Shown here: positions 52,055-62,387 of the stretch, in pieces
How positions within the stretch are numbered: position 1 is the stretch's first letter
Layout of the letters: each line of letters opens with the position of its first letter
Assembly (NCBI RefSeq): GCF_027111355.2
Contig: NZ_CP114291.2
Coordinates: 3,596,001-3,660,000, forward strand
From: Flavobacterium eburneipallidum
Lineage (GTDB): Bacteria > Bacteroidota > Bacteroidia > Flavobacteriales > Flavobacteriaceae
Length of the DNA: 64,000 nt
Direction: 5' to 3'
The notes under the pieces: model-generated
Told to the model about the DNA's origin: nothing
Database searches by the model: none
The model's input: the letters and a program-made list of their open reading frames with translations, nothing else
Made by a program: the position numbers and the translations under genes

Positions 52055-52318
52055 ATGAATACTAAACTCACATTATCGTTAGAAAAAACGGTTATTGAAG
52101 ATGCTAAAGCCTACGCTAAAGGCACTGGTCGAAGTTTGTCTGAAATGGTCGAAAATTATTTTAAAAGTTTGGTTGCAAAATCCAATAAAGACTATAATAA
52201 CAATGACGATGAGATTGATCCAAGCCTAAAAAAATTGGTTGGAATTATTGAATTACCACCTGATTTTGACATTAAAAAAGCGAGAGATGAGCACTACAAA
52301 GAGAAATACGGTTTATGA
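52055..52318 (+). CDS. Antitoxin-like DUF6364 / ribbon-helix-helix protein (87 aa)
   Basis: The N-terminal 45 residues form a ribbon-helix-helix fold: beta strand KLTLSLEKTVIEDAKAYA, then KGTGRSLSEMVENYFKSLVA. This is the DUF6364 pattern usually paired with PIN toxins. The C-terminal tail (residues 60-87), with DIKKARDEHYKEKYGL, probably wraps the toxin. Its stop codon overlaps the toxin start by 4 nt (ATGA), so translation is coupled. It probably represses its own promoter, as related antitoxins do (known of the class, not shown here). Confidence 0.85.
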   Translation: MNTKLTLSLEKTVIEDAKAYAKGTGRSLSEMVENYFKSLVAKSNKDYNNNDDEIDPSLKKLVGIIELPPDFDIKKARDEHYKEKYGL

Positions 52319-52731
52319 AAAATATTTTTATTGACATCAATATTTTAGTAGATGTATTTGCTAATAGGGAACCATTTGTTCATAAATCATTAGCAATTTA
52401 TAATTTGGCTACTAAAAGAAAAATAAAATTATATTCCTCTTCAAATACCATCACAACATTACATTATATTTTAAAAAAATCAATTTCTGAAGAAAAAACA
52501 AGATTGGCACTAGAGCACGTTATTGAATATGTATCTATTATTCCAGTAGATATCAATATCATCAAAAAAAGTTTAAAATCAAATCATAAAGACTTTGAAG
52601 ATGCTATTCAAATCATTTCAGCACAGTCCATTAATGACATGGATTGCATCGTCACAAGAAATTTAAAAGATTACAAAAATGCCGAAATAAATGTACTTTC
52701 TCCTGATGATTTTTTAAATACTTTAAACTAA
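52315..52731 (+). CDS. PIN-domain ribonuclease toxin (VapC-like, PIN_3 type)
   Basis: This 138-aa PIN domain is predicted to be a Mg2+-dependent RNase. The acidic residues are D7 (FIDINILVD), D96 (KDFEDAIQ) and D110 (MDCIVTRNLKDY). The central acidic residue of classical VapC is replaced by the SSSNTITTLHYILK stretch, as in the PIN_3 subfamily. It overlaps the antitoxin gene by 4 nt. The pair lies between a hypothetical gene and purK and is the only clear accessory module in the window. Confidence 0.87.
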   Translation: MKNIFIDINILVDVFANREPFVHKSLAIYNLATKRKIKLYSSSNTITTLHYILKKSISEEKTRLALEHVIEYVSIIPVDINIIKKSLKSNHKDFEDAIQIISAQSINDMDCIVTRNLKDYKNAEINVLSPDDFLNTLN

Positions 52732-57423: not shown

Positions 57424-57470
57424 AAACTTTCATTTATTTTTGAAAGTTTAAAAATTTTTACTTACATTTG
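57424..57470 (+). promoter_or_regulatory. gbsR promoter with overlapping inverted-repeat operator (site 1)
   Basis: TTTG (57439-57442) and TACATTTG (57463-57470) with exactly 20 nt between them form a full -33/-7 promoter. The inverted repeat AAACTTTCA (57424-57432) / TGAAAGTTT (57441-57449), 8-nt spacer, covers the -33 box. This is placed well for autorepression by the GbsR/MarR protein. The same repeat recurs at 58014-58039. Confidence 0.75.
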
Positions 57471-57496
57471 TTTCAACAAAAGGAAATAAAACCAAA

Positions 57497-58000
57497 ATGG
57501 AATTCAAAGAAGCAAAAAATAAATTCGTACAAACCTGGGGAGCTTTAGGTTCTCAATGGGGAATTAACAAAACCATGGCGCAAATTCATGCTTTGTTGAT
57601 GGTATCAGGCGAAGCTGTTTCGATGGAAGAAGTTATGGAAGAATTGCAAATTTCTCGTGGAAATGCCAGTATGAACTTAAGAGCCTTGATGGATTGGGGA
57701 ATTGTTTACAAAGAATACAAAGCAGGTGAGCGTAAAGAATTTTTTACAGCCGAAAAAGATTTAGACGAACTGGCTTCTAAAATTGCAAGAGAGAGAAGCA
57801 AAAGAGAAATCAAACCTGCTCTTAAAATTTTAAAAGAAGTTTCCTCGATTGAATCGAAAGATACTGTAGAAGAAAAACACTTTGTGGATCAAACCACTAA
57901 ACTGTATGATTTTGTTTTGAAAGCCGATAATATGTTGGACAAAATAACAGAATTCAAGGAAAACTGGTTGGGAAAATTGATTATAAAAATAATGAAATAA
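57497..58000 (+). CDS. GbsR/MarR-family transcriptional regulator (167 aa)
   Basis: This is a winged-helix DNA-binding protein of the GbsR type. The N-terminal FVQTWGALGSQWGINKTMAQ is followed by the helix-turn-helix VSMEEVMEELQISRGNASMN, the wing at YKEYKAGERKEFFTAEKD, and a helical C-terminal dimerisation region. Other family members sense choline or act on osmoprotectant genes, but many in Bacteroidota have unknown ligands. It heads the set with DCC, epimerase and SRPBCC genes. An identical 9-8-9 inverted repeat lies before this gene and before the next one, which strongly suggests it controls both. Confidence 0.9.
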   Translation: MEFKEAKNKFVQTWGALGSQWGINKTMAQIHALLMVSGEAVSMEEVMEELQISRGNASMNLRALMDWGIVYKEYKAGERKEFFTAEKDLDELASKIARERSKREIKPALKILKEVSSIESKDTVEEKHFVDQTTKLYDFVLKADNMLDKITEFKENWLGKLIIKIMK

Positions 58001-58013
58001 AAAAATTTAATCA

Positions 58014-58039
58014 AAACTTTCATTTTTTTCTGAAAGTTT
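58014..58039 (+). promoter_or_regulatory. Second copy of the AAACTTTCA-N8-TGAAAGTTT operator (site 2)
   Basis: AAACTTTCA (58014-58022) and TGAAAGTTT (58031-58039) repeat site 1 base for base in the arms, with the same 8-nt spacer, inside the 53-nt gap between gbsR and the DCC gene. No TAnnTTTG box is visible between it and the ATG at 58054. Confidence 0.7.
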
Positions 58040-58053
58040 AAAAATAAAATATT

Positions 58054-58875
58054 ATGAAAACTTTAGAAAACCAAACTTTGCTTTATGATGAAGATTGCCC
58101 GCTTTGTAGCATTTACACAACTGGCTTTATAAAAGCAGGAATGCTTGATGAAAATGGCAGAAAATCATATTGTCAATTAAGTAACGAAGAACAAAATTTT
58201 ATTGATGTAAAACGTGCTTCAAACGAAATTGCGTTGGTAGACAACAAAAACAAAACGGTTCTTTACGGAATTGACAGTCTCTTGAAAGTAATTGGAAATT
58301 CATTTCCTTGGATGGAGAAAGCTGGAAACATCAAACCGATAAAATATCTTCTTAAAAAAATGTATTCTTTTGTTTCTTACAACCGTAAAGTGATTATTCC
58401 GAGTAAAATAAATCCAGATATAAAACTGCAATGTGTACCCACTTTCCACTGTAAATTTCGTTTTTTATATATTGCTTTTGCAATCACAATAACTACTATC
58501 ATACTTTATCAGTTTTCAGAATTGATTGCGAATCTACCAAAAGCAAATTTTAGCAGAGAATTGATTCTTGCAGTAGGACAAATTGTTTTTCAAAGTTTAT
58601 TTTTAATAAAATTCAACAAAGAAAAAATATTGAATTACGCAGGAAATTTAATAACAGTTTCTTTAATAGGCTCACTAATTTTGATTCCTTTATTGATTCT
58701 CAATAATTTTATAAATCTTCCTGAAATGTTAATTCTAGGCTGGTTCACAATAACTGTTTTAATCATGTTTGCAGAACATTTTAGAAGAATAAAACTGTTA
58801 GAACTTCCTTTTTATCTCTCTTACACTTGGGTACTTTACAGAATAATTGCTTTATTATTTATTTTAAATTTATAA
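58054..58875 (+). CDS. DCC-family thiol-disulfide-type protein with membrane tail (273 aa)
   Basis: The N-terminal domain (1-130) is a DCC (DUF393) thioredoxin-like domain with CxxC at C15/C18 in LLYDEDCPLCSIY and ALVDNKNKTVLYGIDSLLKV. The C-terminal half (about 140-273) has four to five hydrophobic helices (FLYIAFAITITTIILYQFSE, YAGNLITVSLIGSLILIPLL), so the protein is anchored in the inner membrane. A redox role is implied by the family but unproven. It is the first gene after operator site 2, and its stop is 2 nt before the epimerase ATG. Confidence 0.85.
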   Translation: MKTLENQTLLYDEDCPLCSIYTTGFIKAGMLDENGRKSYCQLSNEEQNFIDVKRASNEIALVDNKNKTVLYGIDSLLKVIGNSFPWMEKAGNIKPIKYLLKKMYSFVSYNRKVIIPSKINPDIKLQCVPTFHCKFRFLYIAFAITITTIILYQFSELIANLPKANFSRELILAVGQIVFQSLFLIKFNKEKILNYAGNLITVSLIGSLILIPLLILNNFINLPEMLILGWFTITVLIMFAEHFRRIKLLELPFYLSYTWVLYRIIALLFILNL

Positions 58876-58877
58876 CT

Positions 58878-59789
58878 ATGAAAAAACTCATCATCGCAGC
58901 AGGAACAGGCTTTTTAGGAGAAGTTCTAATCAACCATTTCAAAGATAAATTTGAAGAAATTATTATCTTAACTAGAGGAGAGTCTAAAACTAATGGCAAT
59001 ATCAAATATGTAAACTGGAATGCTAAAACTTTTACTGGTTGGGAAACAGCATTAGAAAATGCCGACGTTTTAATCAATCTTGCTGGAAAATCTGTGGATT
59101 GTCGTTACACAGAAAAGAATAAGAAAGAAATTTTATTGTCTCGTATTCAAAGCACCAAAATTCTAAACAAAGCGGTTTTGAATTGTAAAAATCCACCGAA
59201 ACATTGGTTGAATTCATCAACTTCTACCATCTATCGTTTTTCTTTGGATAAACAAATGGATGAAATAGATGGCGAAATTGGAAATGATTTTTCGATGAAC
59301 GTTGCTCAATCTTGGGAAAAATCTTTTTTCAAAACAGAAACTCCCAAAACCTTAAAAACAGCTTTGAGAACTTCTATCGTTTTAGGCAAAAATGGGGGTG
59401 CTTTTATTCCATTGAAAATTTTGGCAAAAGTAGGTTTTGGCGGAAAACAAGGAAGTGGCAATCAATTTATCAGTTGGATTCACGAAGAAGATTTTGCCAA
59501 TGCTGTTGATTTTATCATTCAAAGAGAAATGACCGGAGTTGTCAATATTGTTTCTCCAGAACCAATTCGAAATTTTAATTTTATGAAAAAACTCCGAAAA
59601 GCAGTTGGTTTTCCTTTTGGTATTCCAATTAATACTTTTTTGTTGAAAATTGGATCTTTTATCATTCGAACAGAAACCGAATTAGTTTTAAAAAGTAGAA
59701 ATGTGATTCCAAAACGACTGTTAGAAAATGGATTCCAATTCAAGTTCGGAAATATTGATAACGCATTTCAAAATTTATTAAAAAAATGA
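58878..59789 (+). CDS. TIGR01777-family NAD(P)-dependent epimerase (SDR39U1-like)
   Basis: I set the start at the ATG at 58878 (MKKLIIAAGTGFLGEVLINH). A longer frame from 58827 overlaps the previous gene and adds no family sequence. The Rossmann glycine motif is AAGTGFLGE, and VLINLAGKSVDCRYTEKNKK and NSSTSTIYRF fit the SDR core. The C-terminal DUF1731 segment is present (KLRKAVGFPFGIPIN, VLKSRNVIPKRLLENGFQF). Substrate unknown. Its last four bases overlap the next start (ATGA). Confidence 0.9.
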   Translation: MKKLIIAAGTGFLGEVLINHFKDKFEEIIILTRGESKTNGNIKYVNWNAKTFTGWETALENADVLINLAGKSVDCRYTEKNKKEILLSRIQSTKILNKAVLNCKNPPKHWLNSSTSTIYRFSLDKQMDEIDGEIGNDFSMNVAQSWEKSFFKTETPKTLKTALRTSIVLGKNGGAFIPLKILAKVGFGGKQGSGNQFISWIHEEDFANAVDFIIQREMTGVVNIVSPEPIRNFNFMKKLRKAVGFPFGIPINTFLLKIGSFIIRTETELVLKSRNVIPKRLLENGFQFKFGNIDNAFQNLLKK

Positions 59790-60253
59790 CAACAATCCAT
59801 CTCACAACAACAATCCAAGCTCCAATACAAACCGTTTTTGATGTTTCTAGAAACATTGATATTCATCAGCAATCTGCCAGCAAATCAAATGAAATCGCCA
59901 TTGCTGGTGTAACTTCTGGATTGATAAATCTAAACGAAACCGTAACTTGGAAAGGAAAACACTTTGGATTTTATTTAACTCATAAAAGCCGAATTACAGC
60001 CATGACTTTTTACTATTATTTTGTTGATGAAATGGAGGAAGGAAAATTCAAAACTTTCAAGCACGAACATTTTTTTGAAGAAAAAAATGGAATTACCATA
60101 ATGACAGATCAACTGCACTATGAAACTCCGTTTGGTATTTTTGGAAAATTATTTGATTATTTGTTTTTGAAAAAGCATCTGACTCAATTCCTTTTAGAAA
60201 GAAACAAGGTTCTGAAAAAAGTCTGTGAAACTACATCTTCAAAAACTCCCTAA
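59786..60253 (+). CDS. SRPBCC-family protein (155 aa)
   Basis: This is a START-like lipid/ligand-binding fold protein. TTIHLTTTIQAPIQTVFDVS is the typical first strand, and TDQLHYETPFGIFGKLFDYL with FLLERNKVLKKVCETT is the long C-terminal helix. Similar proteins are sometimes annotated as cell division inhibitor or cyclase/dehydrase; nothing in the sequence proves an enzymatic role. It is translationally coupled to the epimerase gene (4-nt overlap) and converges, with a 23-nt overlap, on the DUF4143 ATPase gene. Confidence 0.82.
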   Translation: MTTIHLTTTIQAPIQTVFDVSRNIDIHQQSASKSNEIAIAGVTSGLINLNETVTWKGKHFGFYLTHKSRITAMTFYYYFVDEMEEGKFKTFKHEHFFEEKNGITIMTDQLHYETPFGIFGKLFDYLFLKKHLTQFLLERNKVLKKVCETTSSKTP

Positions 60254-61346
60254 AATTATCGGCAGTTACTATAGTAAAACTCCCCGTATAATTATCTAAA
60301 AAAGGCTTGGGTAACTTGGCTTTTTTGACTTTCCATTTAATTTCAAAAGCATTTACTTCGTCGGCTACAACCTCTACATAATCTACTTCTTGTTGTTGTG
60401 TAGTTCGCCAAAAATAAGGTTTAGCATTTCTGTTTTCATAACTTAACAATTTCATTCTTTCAGAAATTAAAAAATTTTCCCAAAGTGCTCCTTTGTCTTG
60501 TCGAAAATCTAAAAAATTAAAATTCCCTATCAACATATTGCGAACGCCATTGTCATAGAAATAGATTTTTTTATTGGCCTTAATTTCATTTCGATGATTG
60601 CGACTAAAACTGTTCAATCTAAAAATCACGAAACTTTTCTCCAATAAATCAATATAATTACTGACCGTATTTTTATCGACACCTACCAATTGGGCAATTT
60701 CATTATAACTTACCTCACTCCCTATTTGGAAAGCCAAAGCCTGCAAAATTTTCTCTAAAACTTCGGATTTTCTGATTCCAGCCAAACTCAAAATATCTTT
60801 ATACAAATAACTCGACACCAGATTTTTCAGGATTTCATATTCGTTCCCTAAATTATTAATGACATCAGGATACATTCCATACAACAACCGTAATTCCAAT
60901 TGCTGTTGAGCTTTCATATAGCCTACATTTTTCTCAAACTCATTCCACGAAATCGGATACAGATGGTATTCAAACTTTCTACCCGTAAGTGGTTCTTGAG
61001 TAACATGATTAATATCAAAAGCCGACGAGCCGCTCACAATCACCTGAACATCCTTGATTTGATCTACAATTATTTTCAATTTCAAACCAATATTCGGAAT
61101 GCGTTGTACCTCATCAATAAAAACATACTTATAATCACCAATAATATTTTTAAGCGTTTCAGTATTAGCATTCGATAGTGTTTCCACAACAACGGAATCA
61201 TCTCCATCAAGAAACAAAAAAGGAATTCCTTTCAATAAGCTTTGAACCATAGTCGTTTTCCCTACTTGACGTGGCCCAACAAGCACAATAACCTTTCCTT
61301 TATTGAGTCTTTCTTCAATATTTGATATTAAAAACCTGTCTATCAT
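60231..61346 (-). CDS. AAA-family ATPase with DUF4143 domain (371 aa)
   Basis: The start is the ATG at 61346 (MIDRFLISNIEERLNKGKVI); the TTG at 61364 would lie at the predicted transcription start. Walker A is GPRQVGKT (24-31) and Walker B is YVFIDEVQRI. A winged-helix region (ALAFQIGSEVSYNEIAQLVG, then VDKNTVSNYIDLLEKSFVIF) links to the C-terminal DUF4143 nuclease-like region (GALWENFLISERM, WRTTQQQEVDYVEV, AFEIKWK). The PD-(D/E)xK-like E...D...E-x-K pattern is seen there. The family is widespread and of unknown function. It lies behind 33-bp direct repeats. Confidence 0.87.
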   Translation of the reverse strand: MIDRFLISNIEERLNKGKVIVLVGPRQVGKTTMVQSLLKGIPFLFLDGDDSVVVETLSNANTETLKNIIGDYKYVFIDEVQRIPNIGLKLKIIVDQIKDVQVIVSGSSAFDINHVTQEPLTGRKFEYHLYPISWNEFEKNVGYMKAQQQLELRLLYGMYPDVINNLGNEYEILKNLVSSYLYKDILSLAGIRKSEVLEKILQALAFQIGSEVSYNEIAQLVGVDKNTVSNYIDLLEKSFVIFRLNSFSRNHRNEIKANKKIYFYDNGVRNMLIGNFNFLDFRQDKGALWENFLISERMKLLSYENRNAKPYFWRTTQQQEVDYVEVVADEVNAFEIKWKVKKAKLPKPFLDNYTGSFTIVTADNFREFLKM

Positions 61347-61361
61347 CTTTTTAATTTTAAA

Positions 61362-61369
61362 CAAAGATA
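61362..61369 (-). promoter_or_regulatory. Candidate -7 box for the DUF4143 ATPase gene
   Basis: The minus strand reads TATCTTTG, 15 nt before the ATG at 61346. A near -33 match (ATTG, 61391-61394) lies 21 nt away, inside the first direct repeat. Confidence 0.45.
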
Positions 61370-61380
61370 TATAAAAATAT

Positions 61381-61460
61381 TTATATTCACCAATTTAAGA
61401 TGTTATTCAGTGATTATATTCACCAATTTAAGGTATTATTCAGTGATTATATTCACCAAT
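61381..61460. repeat. 33-bp direct repeats (2.4 copies) in the DUF4143 gene promoter region
   Basis: The unit starting TTATATTCACCAATTTAAG occurs at 61381-61413 and 61414-61446 (three differences at most), with a partial third copy from 61447. Each junction forms a near-palindrome, AGTGATTATATTCACC (61410-61425 and 61443-61458), with GTGA/TCAC ends, so these look like two operator sites spaced 33 bp (about three helical turns). Confidence 0.75.
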
Positions 61461-61470
61461 ATTAGTATTT

Positions 61471-62289
61471 TTAAAATAAAAACACCATAAACCACCAAAG
61501 AATAGGTACGCTTTCAGCCCAAAAAGAAGTATAGTATTTGGAGCGTTTTTCATTGGCGAAAGCCAAGAACAAAGATGTAATAATCGCAATGATAATAACC
61601 AATAATAAGTGAGTGATATTAGAATTAAAATTACTATTCAGAAGTTCTAAAGCACAAAAAATCAACAATAGAAAATATCCCAAATTTTTAGTCCGTTTCA
61701 CTCCTATTTGTTGCGGAACGGTTTTTAAATGCGGATCATCATGAGTTAAATCAAGGATTTCAAAAATAAGTATCAGTACAAATACGAGTATAAATCGTTG
61801 GATACTTTTGAGATAAAAATCGGAAGTTATTGCAATGCCTGAATCTATAATTGGTAATACCAAAGTCACTCCCACCCAACACAAAGACACAATATAAATT
61901 TTGACACCCGCCCAATTTCTAGCATTTTTGCGATTTGGAAAAAAAGGCAATGTGTATAATAAAGTCAGAGACAAAACTCCTATAGAAACCATTTGCGTTA
62001 AACGTTGCAATTGAAAAAAATAAAATCCAGTAGCTAAAAAAGATAAAGCACTAAACAAAATAATAAGTTTCAAACTGGTACGAAATTGGACTTTATTAGT
62101 TCGGGCGAAGCTATCGTATTTCACAAAATTATAACCAACAATAGTTCCAAAAAAAGCAAAATTGGCTATGGGTTTATCTTCTGGAATATGAAACATAAAA
62201 CAGGTCATTTGCACCAAAGAATATACCGACAAAGCCACGTGAATACTGCTTTGAATATAAAAATCGAATACCTTTTTTAAAACTTTCAT
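61471..62289 (-). CDS. Polytopic membrane protein, possibly UbiA-like (272 aa)
   Basis: The start is the ATG at 62289 (MKVLKKVFDFYIQSSIHVAL); upstream in-frame residues have no ATG. Seven to eight hydrophobic helices span the length (LIILFSALSFLATGFYFF, MVSIGVLSLTLLYTLPFF, FILVFVLILIFEILDL). The polar stretch LDLTHDDPHLKTVPQQIGVK resembles the second Asp-rich motif of UbiA prenyltransferases. The first motif (NDxxDxxxD) is not obvious, so membership is uncertain. It is inner-membrane, divergent from gcvP, with a -7 box exactly 4 nt upstream of the ATG. Confidence 0.65.
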   Translation of the reverse strand: MKVLKKVFDFYIQSSIHVALSVYSLVQMTCFMFHIPEDKPIANFAFFGTIVGYNFVKYDSFARTNKVQFRTSLKLIILFSALSFLATGFYFFQLQRLTQMVSIGVLSLTLLYTLPFFPNRKNARNWAGVKIYIVSLCWVGVTLVLPIIDSGIAITSDFYLKSIQRFILVFVLILIFEILDLTHDDPHLKTVPQQIGVKRTKNLGYFLLLIFCALELLNSNFNSNITHLLLVIIIAIITSLFLAFANEKRSKYYTSFWAESVPILWWFMVFLF

Positions 62290-62293
62290 CACA

Positions 62294-62301
62294 CAAAAAT
62301 A
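62294..62301 (-). promoter_or_regulatory. -7 box 4 nt before the ATG at 62289 (predicted leaderless mRNA)
   Basis: The minus strand reads TATTTTTG followed by four bases and the ATG. Same geometry as at 36993 and 45568. Confidence 0.45.
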
Positions 62302-62387
62302 AGCAAGGTTGTTAACAAGTAGCAACTTTAGTTGAAAGATTCCTAAAAATCAATTCCTTGAAGCCGATTTCTTTTGAATATTCTCCG

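Follow-up and report, generated by a model that had tools for sequence, protein, structure and literature searches.

A conserved pair of inverted repeats brackets a GbsR-type regulator gene in Flavobacterium and its relatives: a putative two-site operator

What does a GbsR-type regulator control when its genomic neighborhood offers no obvious clue? According to the accessible part of a 2018 survey of the family, the neighborhoods of 73 of 179 homologs, chiefly from Euryarchaeota and Bacteroidetes, gave no deducible function, and the Bacteroidetes proteins formed no consistent picture (PMC6207618). Flavobacterium eburneipallidum poses this question with a gbsR gene that has an inverted repeat in front of it and another behind it. 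The initial annotation of the window (the whole stretch of DNA that we analyzed, 64,000 nucleotides of contig NZ_CP114291.2) took the repeats for two base-identical operators that define one small autoregulated regulon, made up of the regulator, a DCC thiol protein, a TIGR01777 epimerase, and an SRPBCC protein. The open-license literature yielded nothing on GbsR in Flavobacterium or on COG1510, nothing on TIGR01777 with Flavobacterium or with SRPBCC and photolyase, and no paper pairing any of DUF2071, SRPBCC, and DCC.

Both repeats are present as described: AAACTTTCA-N8-TGAAAGTTT occurs without mismatches at two sites 590 bp apart (Table 1). With up to three mismatches allowed, the inverted repeat has two matches in the window, against 0.39 expected from shuffled sequences at the same tolerance. 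The 9-bp arms are the same at both sites and the 8-bp spacers (TTTATTTT and TTTTTTTC) are unlike, so the sites are arm-identical and not, as had been claimed, base-identical over their full length. Across the complete one-contig genome (3,845,436 bases), AACTTTCA-N8-TGAAAGTT has two exact matches, both at the gbsR locus. Up to two mismatches add four more, for a total of six versus six in the reversed control. The degenerate form AASTTTCA-N8-TGAAASTT, at no more than one mismatch, recovers sites 1 and 2 only (reversed control, one match), and the scan for further copies that the initial annotation had recommended thus found the full operator nowhere else. The bare core TTTCA-N8-TGAAA gave 42 genomic matches versus 12 in the reversed control, which indicates that the core by itself is common in this genome. 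Away from the locus, 30 of the 40 bare cores lie within open reading frames (ORFs) of at least 100 amino acids and 10 lie between ORFs. A wider regulon was rejected after 6 of these 10 intergenic cores were viewed by eye; their ORFs were kinase-like, lipoprotein-like, and sigma-factor-like, among others, and no cassette-like neighborhood was seen.

Table 1. Features of the gbsR locus (coordinates are positions in the window)
Feature	Coordinates	Strand	Description
Site 1	57424..57449	.	AAACTTTCA-TTTATTTT-TGAAAGTTT; inferred operator over the -33 element of the gbsR promoter
-33 element of P1	57439..57442	+	TTTG, within the right half of site 1
-7 element of P1	57463..57470	+	TACATTTG; sigma-A consensus TAnnTTTG
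gbsR	57497..58000	+	GbsR/MarR-type winged-helix regulator, 167 aa
Site 2	58014..58039	.	AAACTTTCA-TTTTTTTC-TGAAAGTTT; inferred intercistronic operator
DCC-type thiol-disulfide oxidoreductase	58054..58875	+	273 aa; PF04134, E = 1.6e-6, 29.8 bits (cutoff, 27.8)
TIGR01777-family NAD-dependent epimerase/oxidoreductase	58878..59789	+	303 aa; TIGR01777 (256 bits), PF08338, PF01370
SRPBCC-like protein	59786..60253	+	155 aa; overlaps the TIGR01777 gene by 4 nt

By its sequence, the regulator belongs to the GbsR family. Its profile matches Mj223 (PDB 1ku9), the best solved relative, with an E value of 7.3e-25 across positions 3 to 153 of 166, which points to a winged-helix fold with a C-terminal dimerization part like that of Mj223. 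The Pfam MarR_2 model scores 26 bits, slightly under its cutoff of 27, and the NCBIfam CudC equivalog model fails with 54 bits against a cutoff of 218. Choline-responsive GbsR proteins carry an aromatic cage near the linker between their domains; residues 84 to 112 of the window regulator include no F, Y, or W, and the aligned regulators have no invariant aromatic column in these residues. The window neighbors of gbsR encode an M3 peptidase, an unassigned small ORF, the DCC, TIGR01777, and SRPBCC-like proteins, and a DUF4143 ATPase; among them are no glycine betaine synthesis or uptake genes and no cydAB. Across 28 aligned regulators, with identities down to 42%, S53, R54, G55, N56, N60, and R62 are invariant, and we take this SRGN...N.R stretch as the putative recognition helix.

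Scanning for the regulator gave 286 confirmed relatives, the best 80 of which, nearly all labeled Flavobacterium, were kept as named loci. All of these best 80 of 286 carry a site before gbsR and another behind it (81 of 81 with the window), and the ten core bases, TTTCA and TGAAA, are constant at both sites of all 81 loci. Only C and G are seen at position 4; position 23 has G or C and, in one instance, A. The combinations at site 1 are C..G (54 loci), G..G (19), C..C (7), and C..A (1), and those at site 2 are C..G (78), G..G (2), and G..C (1). The two positions change singly, which fits protein contacts on half-sites. By a cutoff of E below 1e-80, gbsR is present in 27 of 60 genomes of the genus, with a weak match of 8e-4 in G019 left out. 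Flavobacterium johnsoniae CI04 also has the gbsR locus (L107). AASTTTCA-N8-TGAAASTT occurs in 27 of 27 gbsR-positive genomes versus 1 of 33 gbsR-negative ones, a comparison between related and hence nonindependent genomes, for which Fisher P values of motif or cargo co-occurrence overstate the case. Of the 52 copies in the gbsR-positive genomes, 51 lie at the gbsR locus. The one gbsR-negative genome with the motif (G041, locus L156) has an exact copy of the degenerate form, which may be a remnant or have arisen by chance.

Across 395 searched genomes of the order, the regulator was found in 107 (E up to 1e-20), including 81 outside Flavobacterium. We examined 49 of these 81 loci, with all 23 genera represented and regulators 43 to 75% identical. 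Of the 49 loci, 48 have TTTCA-N8-TGAAA in the 150 nt before gbsR and 44 have it in the 250 nt behind the gene; simulated sequences of the same dinucleotide makeup gave 0.06 and 0.07 loci, respectively. Other spacings from N0 to N20 occur in 0 to 3 of 49 loci, except for N20 downstream, which occurs in 14 through an extra TTTCA. The N8 core was found neither inside gbsR nor in two control stretches of these loci. In those 14 of 49 loci, the extra TTTCA is invariably 12 nt upstream of the left half of site 2 and is possibly a third half-site. Five of the 49 loci lack the downstream core: L123 and L124 have gbsR without a cassette behind it (L123 keeps the regulator with neither site), the contig stops right behind gbsR in L127, and in L125 the core lies about 750 nt further downstream, between the first and second genes. 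L205 is a true absence of site 2, with a c4/c5-family ORF next.

At the level of the phylum, the regulator profile was positive in 129 of 395 genomes, and 40 of their loci were examined. The 25 loci scoring above 200 bits (class or phylum level) have site 1 in 23 cases (absent in L262 and L272) and site 2 in 12. Two of the 15 lower-scoring loci have an upstream core, over 110 nt away from the start codon, and none has a downstream core. The upstream search in gbsR orthologs proposed by the initial annotation therefore found the motif in 80 of the 80 best relatives, 48 of 49 other loci, and 23 of 25 distant ones. Conservation this far past the genus supports the proposal of two operators in one small autoregulated regulon and, on the sequence evidence, makes the site pair a conserved trait of the whole regulator clade and not a local curiosity.

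Site 1 coincides with a promoter, as the initial annotation had described. The sigma-A -7 consensus, TAnnTTTG, spans -12 to -5 according to the available part of a transcription start study (PMC9723704), and in the window TTTG and TACATTTG are separated by 20 nt (promoter P1). At site 1, TTG-N20-TAnnTTTG stands in a fixed register, with a perfect six-of-six -7 box, in all 81 Flavobacterium loci, the window among them. Outside Flavobacterium, the -7 box is perfect in 38 of 48 site 1 loci and matches at five of six bases in the other 10. Position 17 is the one base that consistently tells the two sites apart: every one of the 81 copies of site 1 has T there, which completes the -33 TTG, and every one of the 81 copies of site 2 has C.

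Counting from the -7 box also predicts where gbsR transcripts begin. A leaderless mRNA starting at the A of the ATG is predicted for 67 of the 81 loci of the genus, and the same is predicted for 26 of the 49 loci from elsewhere in the order and for 7 of the 25 distant ones; in the window, 26 nt lie between the -7 box and the ATG (57463-57497). By the available part of the F. psychrophilum study, leaderless mRNAs made up 5.5% of those examined (PMC9723704).

Site 2 starts 13 nt past the gbsR stop codon and 544 nt past the -7 box of P1, and it ends 14 nt ahead of the next ATG. Among Flavobacterium loci, the gap from the gbsR stop to the core is 17 nt in 43 of 81 and 29 to 30 nt in 23 of 81. We searched for TTG-N18-21-TAnnTTTG from -120 to +30 nt of the site 2 start and found it in 0 of 137 loci from all sets; the control, 150 nt of gbsR, was also empty, and one mismatch in the -7 box raised the count at site 2 to 11 of 137. 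A sigma-A promoter at site 2 was also rejected on the region past it, where a perfect TAnnTTTG occurs within 32 nt in 0 of 125 loci. Five-of-six matches occur there in 60 of 125, and nearly all of those in Flavobacterium are the start-codon region itself (TAATTATG/TAACTATG/TAGTTATG; 48 matches at two adjacent positions). Synonymous conservation, read by eye, revealed no hidden element near the 3' end of gbsR.

Behind site 2 in the window, the C-terminal part of the DCC protein was judged by eye to be membrane, and the TIGR01777 gene begins 2 nt past the DCC stop codon. The SRPBCC-like protein has no Pfam or NCBIfam match at an E value of 0.001; its label rests on the initial annotation and on our reading of the sequence, and relatives occur in the same operon of other loci. 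The initial annotation's set of three recurs in part. In f17, another family of the class, site 2 is immediately followed by DCC and TIGR01777 genes at six loci (L261, L266, L271, L289, L293, and L294), with SRPBCC next in L266 and L271; L260 (f24) has DCC at this place. The set is not fixed, and the cargo of most Flavobacterium loci is different or larger. The first ORF behind site 2 in the best 80 loci belongs to c4 (small membrane type) in 52 cases and to c5 (DUF2071 type or related) in 15; the rest are c0 (4), DCC (4), TIGR01777 (1), and others (4). Anywhere downstream of gbsR, these 80 loci include at least 65 with TIGR01777, 61 with SRPBCC, 56 with c4, 50 with c0, 44 with c5, 32 with DCC, 18 with c16, 11 with a fatty acid desaturase (c20), and 10 with c22. 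These counts come from simple ORF picking and BLAST clusters with clipped loci included and are therefore lower bounds. One representative per family was compared with Pfam: DUF2071 and FA_desaturase were clear, and DUF4149 (c0), DUF4345 (c22), and PRA1 (c4) stayed under the cutoff.

The presence of site 2 follows that of the cassette. Of the 25 distant loci, 16 have module genes (BLAST E value of 1e-4 to a reference set), and 12 of these have site 2; L258, L267, L268, and L275 have module genes and no site 2. Site 2 is absent from all 9 loci that lack module genes, including L274, which is clipped by its contig edge. In the same-genus genomes, the c0 pair is found in 14 of 27 gbsR-positive versus 0 of 33 gbsR-negative genomes and DCC in 8 of 27 versus 0 of 33 (weak broken matches in G033 and G014, respectively, were left out). 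Operon-type SRPBCC genes occur in five genomes without gbsR (G007, G029, G055, G016, and G072), and the SRPBCC gene is therefore independent of the regulator. By its gene content, the cargo is modular and exchanged between species. Because it consists of membrane proteins, some of them small and multispanning, together with a desaturase, a CxxC protein with a membrane anchor, and probable ligand-binding folds, it may hint at membrane or lipid homeostasis, a suggestion that we hold tentatively and think somewhat less likely true than false. Five loci (L187, L192, L193, L194, and L196) have ECF-sigma-like and small zinc-finger-like genes (n10 and n11) after the cassette, as seen by eye.

The observed sites, their positions, their conservation, and their co-occurrence with the regulator suggest how the locus may work. 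We consider it fairly probable that a GbsR/MarR-type repressor uses site 1 to block the promoter of its own gene and site 2 as a roadblock; the binding, the repression, the roadblock, the cotranscription, and the function of the cargo are what we infer. A regulator dimer would use its winged helices to read TTTCA-N8-TGAAA. Bound to site 1, the dimer would cover the -33 element of the only recognizable promoter and switch gbsR off, and the genes behind gbsR would be silenced too if they are cotranscribed from P1. A second dimer at site 2, in the transcribed gap, would stand in the way of RNA polymerase that escaped the first, the cassette thereby being held down harder than gbsR, and an inducer would free both sites. 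We propose promoter block and roadblock together because two B. subtilis regulators show one mode each: in the available part of their description, OpcR has an operator over the -35 region and sterically blocks RNA polymerase, and GbsR has an operator downstream of the transcription start that works as a roadblock (PMC7396694).

Site 2 might instead control, by steric block, a second promoter of an unrecognized type, such as one for an alternative sigma factor, with gbsR and the cassette as separate units. Outside Flavobacterium, 17 of the 44 loci that have site 2 show a hairpin between the gbsR stop codon and site 2; these are all the loci with a gap of at least 30 nt (L126, L128, L191, L208-L211, L215-L220, L222-L224, and L226), and a T-run follows most of the hairpins as read by eye. 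Some distant loci have the hairpin too (L263, L264, and L269-L271, by eye). At these loci, the hairpin speaks for read-through or for a separate promoter that has escaped notice. In addition, -7 boxes with at least five of six matches are commoner in the 150 nt before site 2 than in the gbsR control (68 versus 16 of 81 loci in Flavobacterium and 34 versus 21 of 44 elsewhere), 16 of the 44 non-Flavobacterium loci have a -7-like box over the left half of site 2, and in F. psychrophilum non-sigma-A motifs accounted for 7% of high-confidence starts, by the available part of that study (PMC9723704). However, the boxes nearly all lack a TTG at 18 to 21 nt (15 of the 16 over the left half), those in Flavobacterium lie at varied positions, and no full sigma-A promoter turned up in any of the 137 loci. 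The Flavobacterium gap is short, with no terminator seen by eye, and the invariant C at position 17 of site 2 abolishes the TTG of site 1. We regard a second promoter as unlikely, though to be kept in mind.

The spacing of the sites invites a different explanation, in which one tetramer or two dimers bridge them and a DNA loop of about 570 bp shuts the promoter. The identical sites lie 558 to 711 bp apart (median, 571) in 125 loci, with a phase concentration (R) of 0.37 over all of these nonindependent loci. Yet the distance is largely the length of gbsR, helical phasing is absent across the 40 distinct distances (R = 0.08), and GbsR and OpuAR are dimers in the available parts of both studies (PMC7396694 and PMC6207618), which leaves a loop improbable. 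That another protein binds the palindrome and gbsR is just one target would accord with the exact motif in G041, which lacks gbsR, but we think it very unlikely: the motif tracks gbsR through the same-genus genomes, stays by gbsR while the flanking genes differ across families, and is missing from 13 of the 15 lower-scoring homolog loci. Least credible is an RNA hairpin formed by site 2 in the cassette leader for translation control or processing. In 60 of the 81 loci of Flavobacterium, site 2 does end 16 to 17 nt before the ATG (the window has 14 nt), and it could fold there with a mean of -6.5 kcal/mol. We disfavor it on the weak folds outside the genus, where 26 of 44 are weaker than -3 kcal/mol, and on the unpaired changes at stem positions 4 and 23; moreover, site 1 has the same sequence upstream of the expected transcription start.

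The repressor with promoter block and roadblock can be compared with known members of the family, again through the available parts of the sources. B. subtilis GbsR, acting on gbsAB and opuB, is a GbsR/MarR-type repressor with an A/T-rich inverted repeat, as is proposed here (PMC7396694). Its gbsAB operator has a 4-bp spacer versus 8 bp here, and the half-sites found here occur with an N4 spacer in 0 of 49 loci upstream and 0 of 49 downstream. It serves choline and osmoprotection genes, unlike the membrane/redox cassette, and at the locus described here a further site overlaps the -33 element from which the regulator gene itself is expected to be transcribed. OpcR (opuB and opuC) shares the operator-over-promoter block proposed for site 1 but targets transport operons, and the part of its description available mentions no second operator behind its own gene (PMC7396694). 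Mj223 of Methanocaldococcus jannaschii, the nearest solved relative, is archaeal, with an operator given there as unknown (PMC7396694). CydE of Alishewanella is, as here, a GbsR-type repressor outside osmoregulation; its reported inducer is sulfate (Xia et al. 2018, as cited in PMC6207618), and its target is the terminal oxidase cydAB, unlike the present cassette (PMC6207618). Within GbsR-type control, the present locus differs in its 8-bp operator spacing, its two-site layout, and its exchangeable cargo.

The initial annotation had placed these protein families near photolyase/cryptochrome genes in some Bacteroidota. TIGR01777- and SRPBCC-type genes are part of light-induced photolyase regulons of the LitR/CarH type, whose regulator belongs to a family other than that of gbsR. 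The genome of F. eburneipallidum has three photolyase-family genes elsewhere, and the link to photolyases holds indirectly, insofar as a distant SRPBCC paralog directly precedes one of them, a likeness to the LitR/CarH type. Carotenoid-type genes lie upstream by eye and a distant TIGR01777 paralog lies nearby (L121, 7033-8789 and 13740-14654). The link does not extend to regulation by the motif, as the photolyase loci have no full operator, and the sole bare core sits within a photolyase ORF.

Several features lie near the locus. An AAA_14/DUF4143 ATPase gene (60231-61364, minus strand) directly follows the SRPBCC-like gene, and a 93% identical copy adjoins gbsR in L019. Direct repeats of about 32 bp (tattcaccaatttaag...ttattcagtgat) at 61380-61470, just upstream of the ATPase gene, are possibly its operator. 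A membrane-type protein with no Pfam or NCBIfam match (61471-62325, minus strand) belongs to a family found downstream in at least 50 of the best 80 loci, and a gene that looks glycine-dehydrogenase-like by eye is downstream in at least 33 of them. Two overlapping small ORFs at 52055-52731 appear by eye to be toxin-antitoxin-like (ribbon-helix-helix-like and PIN-like).

More broadly, and as a speculation that we think rather doubtful as a whole, a Bacteroidia-wide orphan GbsR clade could form a regulatory chassis that uses both modes of the family at once and carries swappable cargo for a dedicated, inducible membrane-lipid stress response of which our searches found no description, with a new class of inducer and a leaderless regulator mRNA in most of the Flavobacterium species examined. 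The Bacteroidetes group of GbsR regulators gains a candidate regulon and a putative operator. With a two-site layout, a recurrent list of cargo genes, and an operator recognizable by its sequence, testable experiments come within reach, as do regulon outlines in many genomes.
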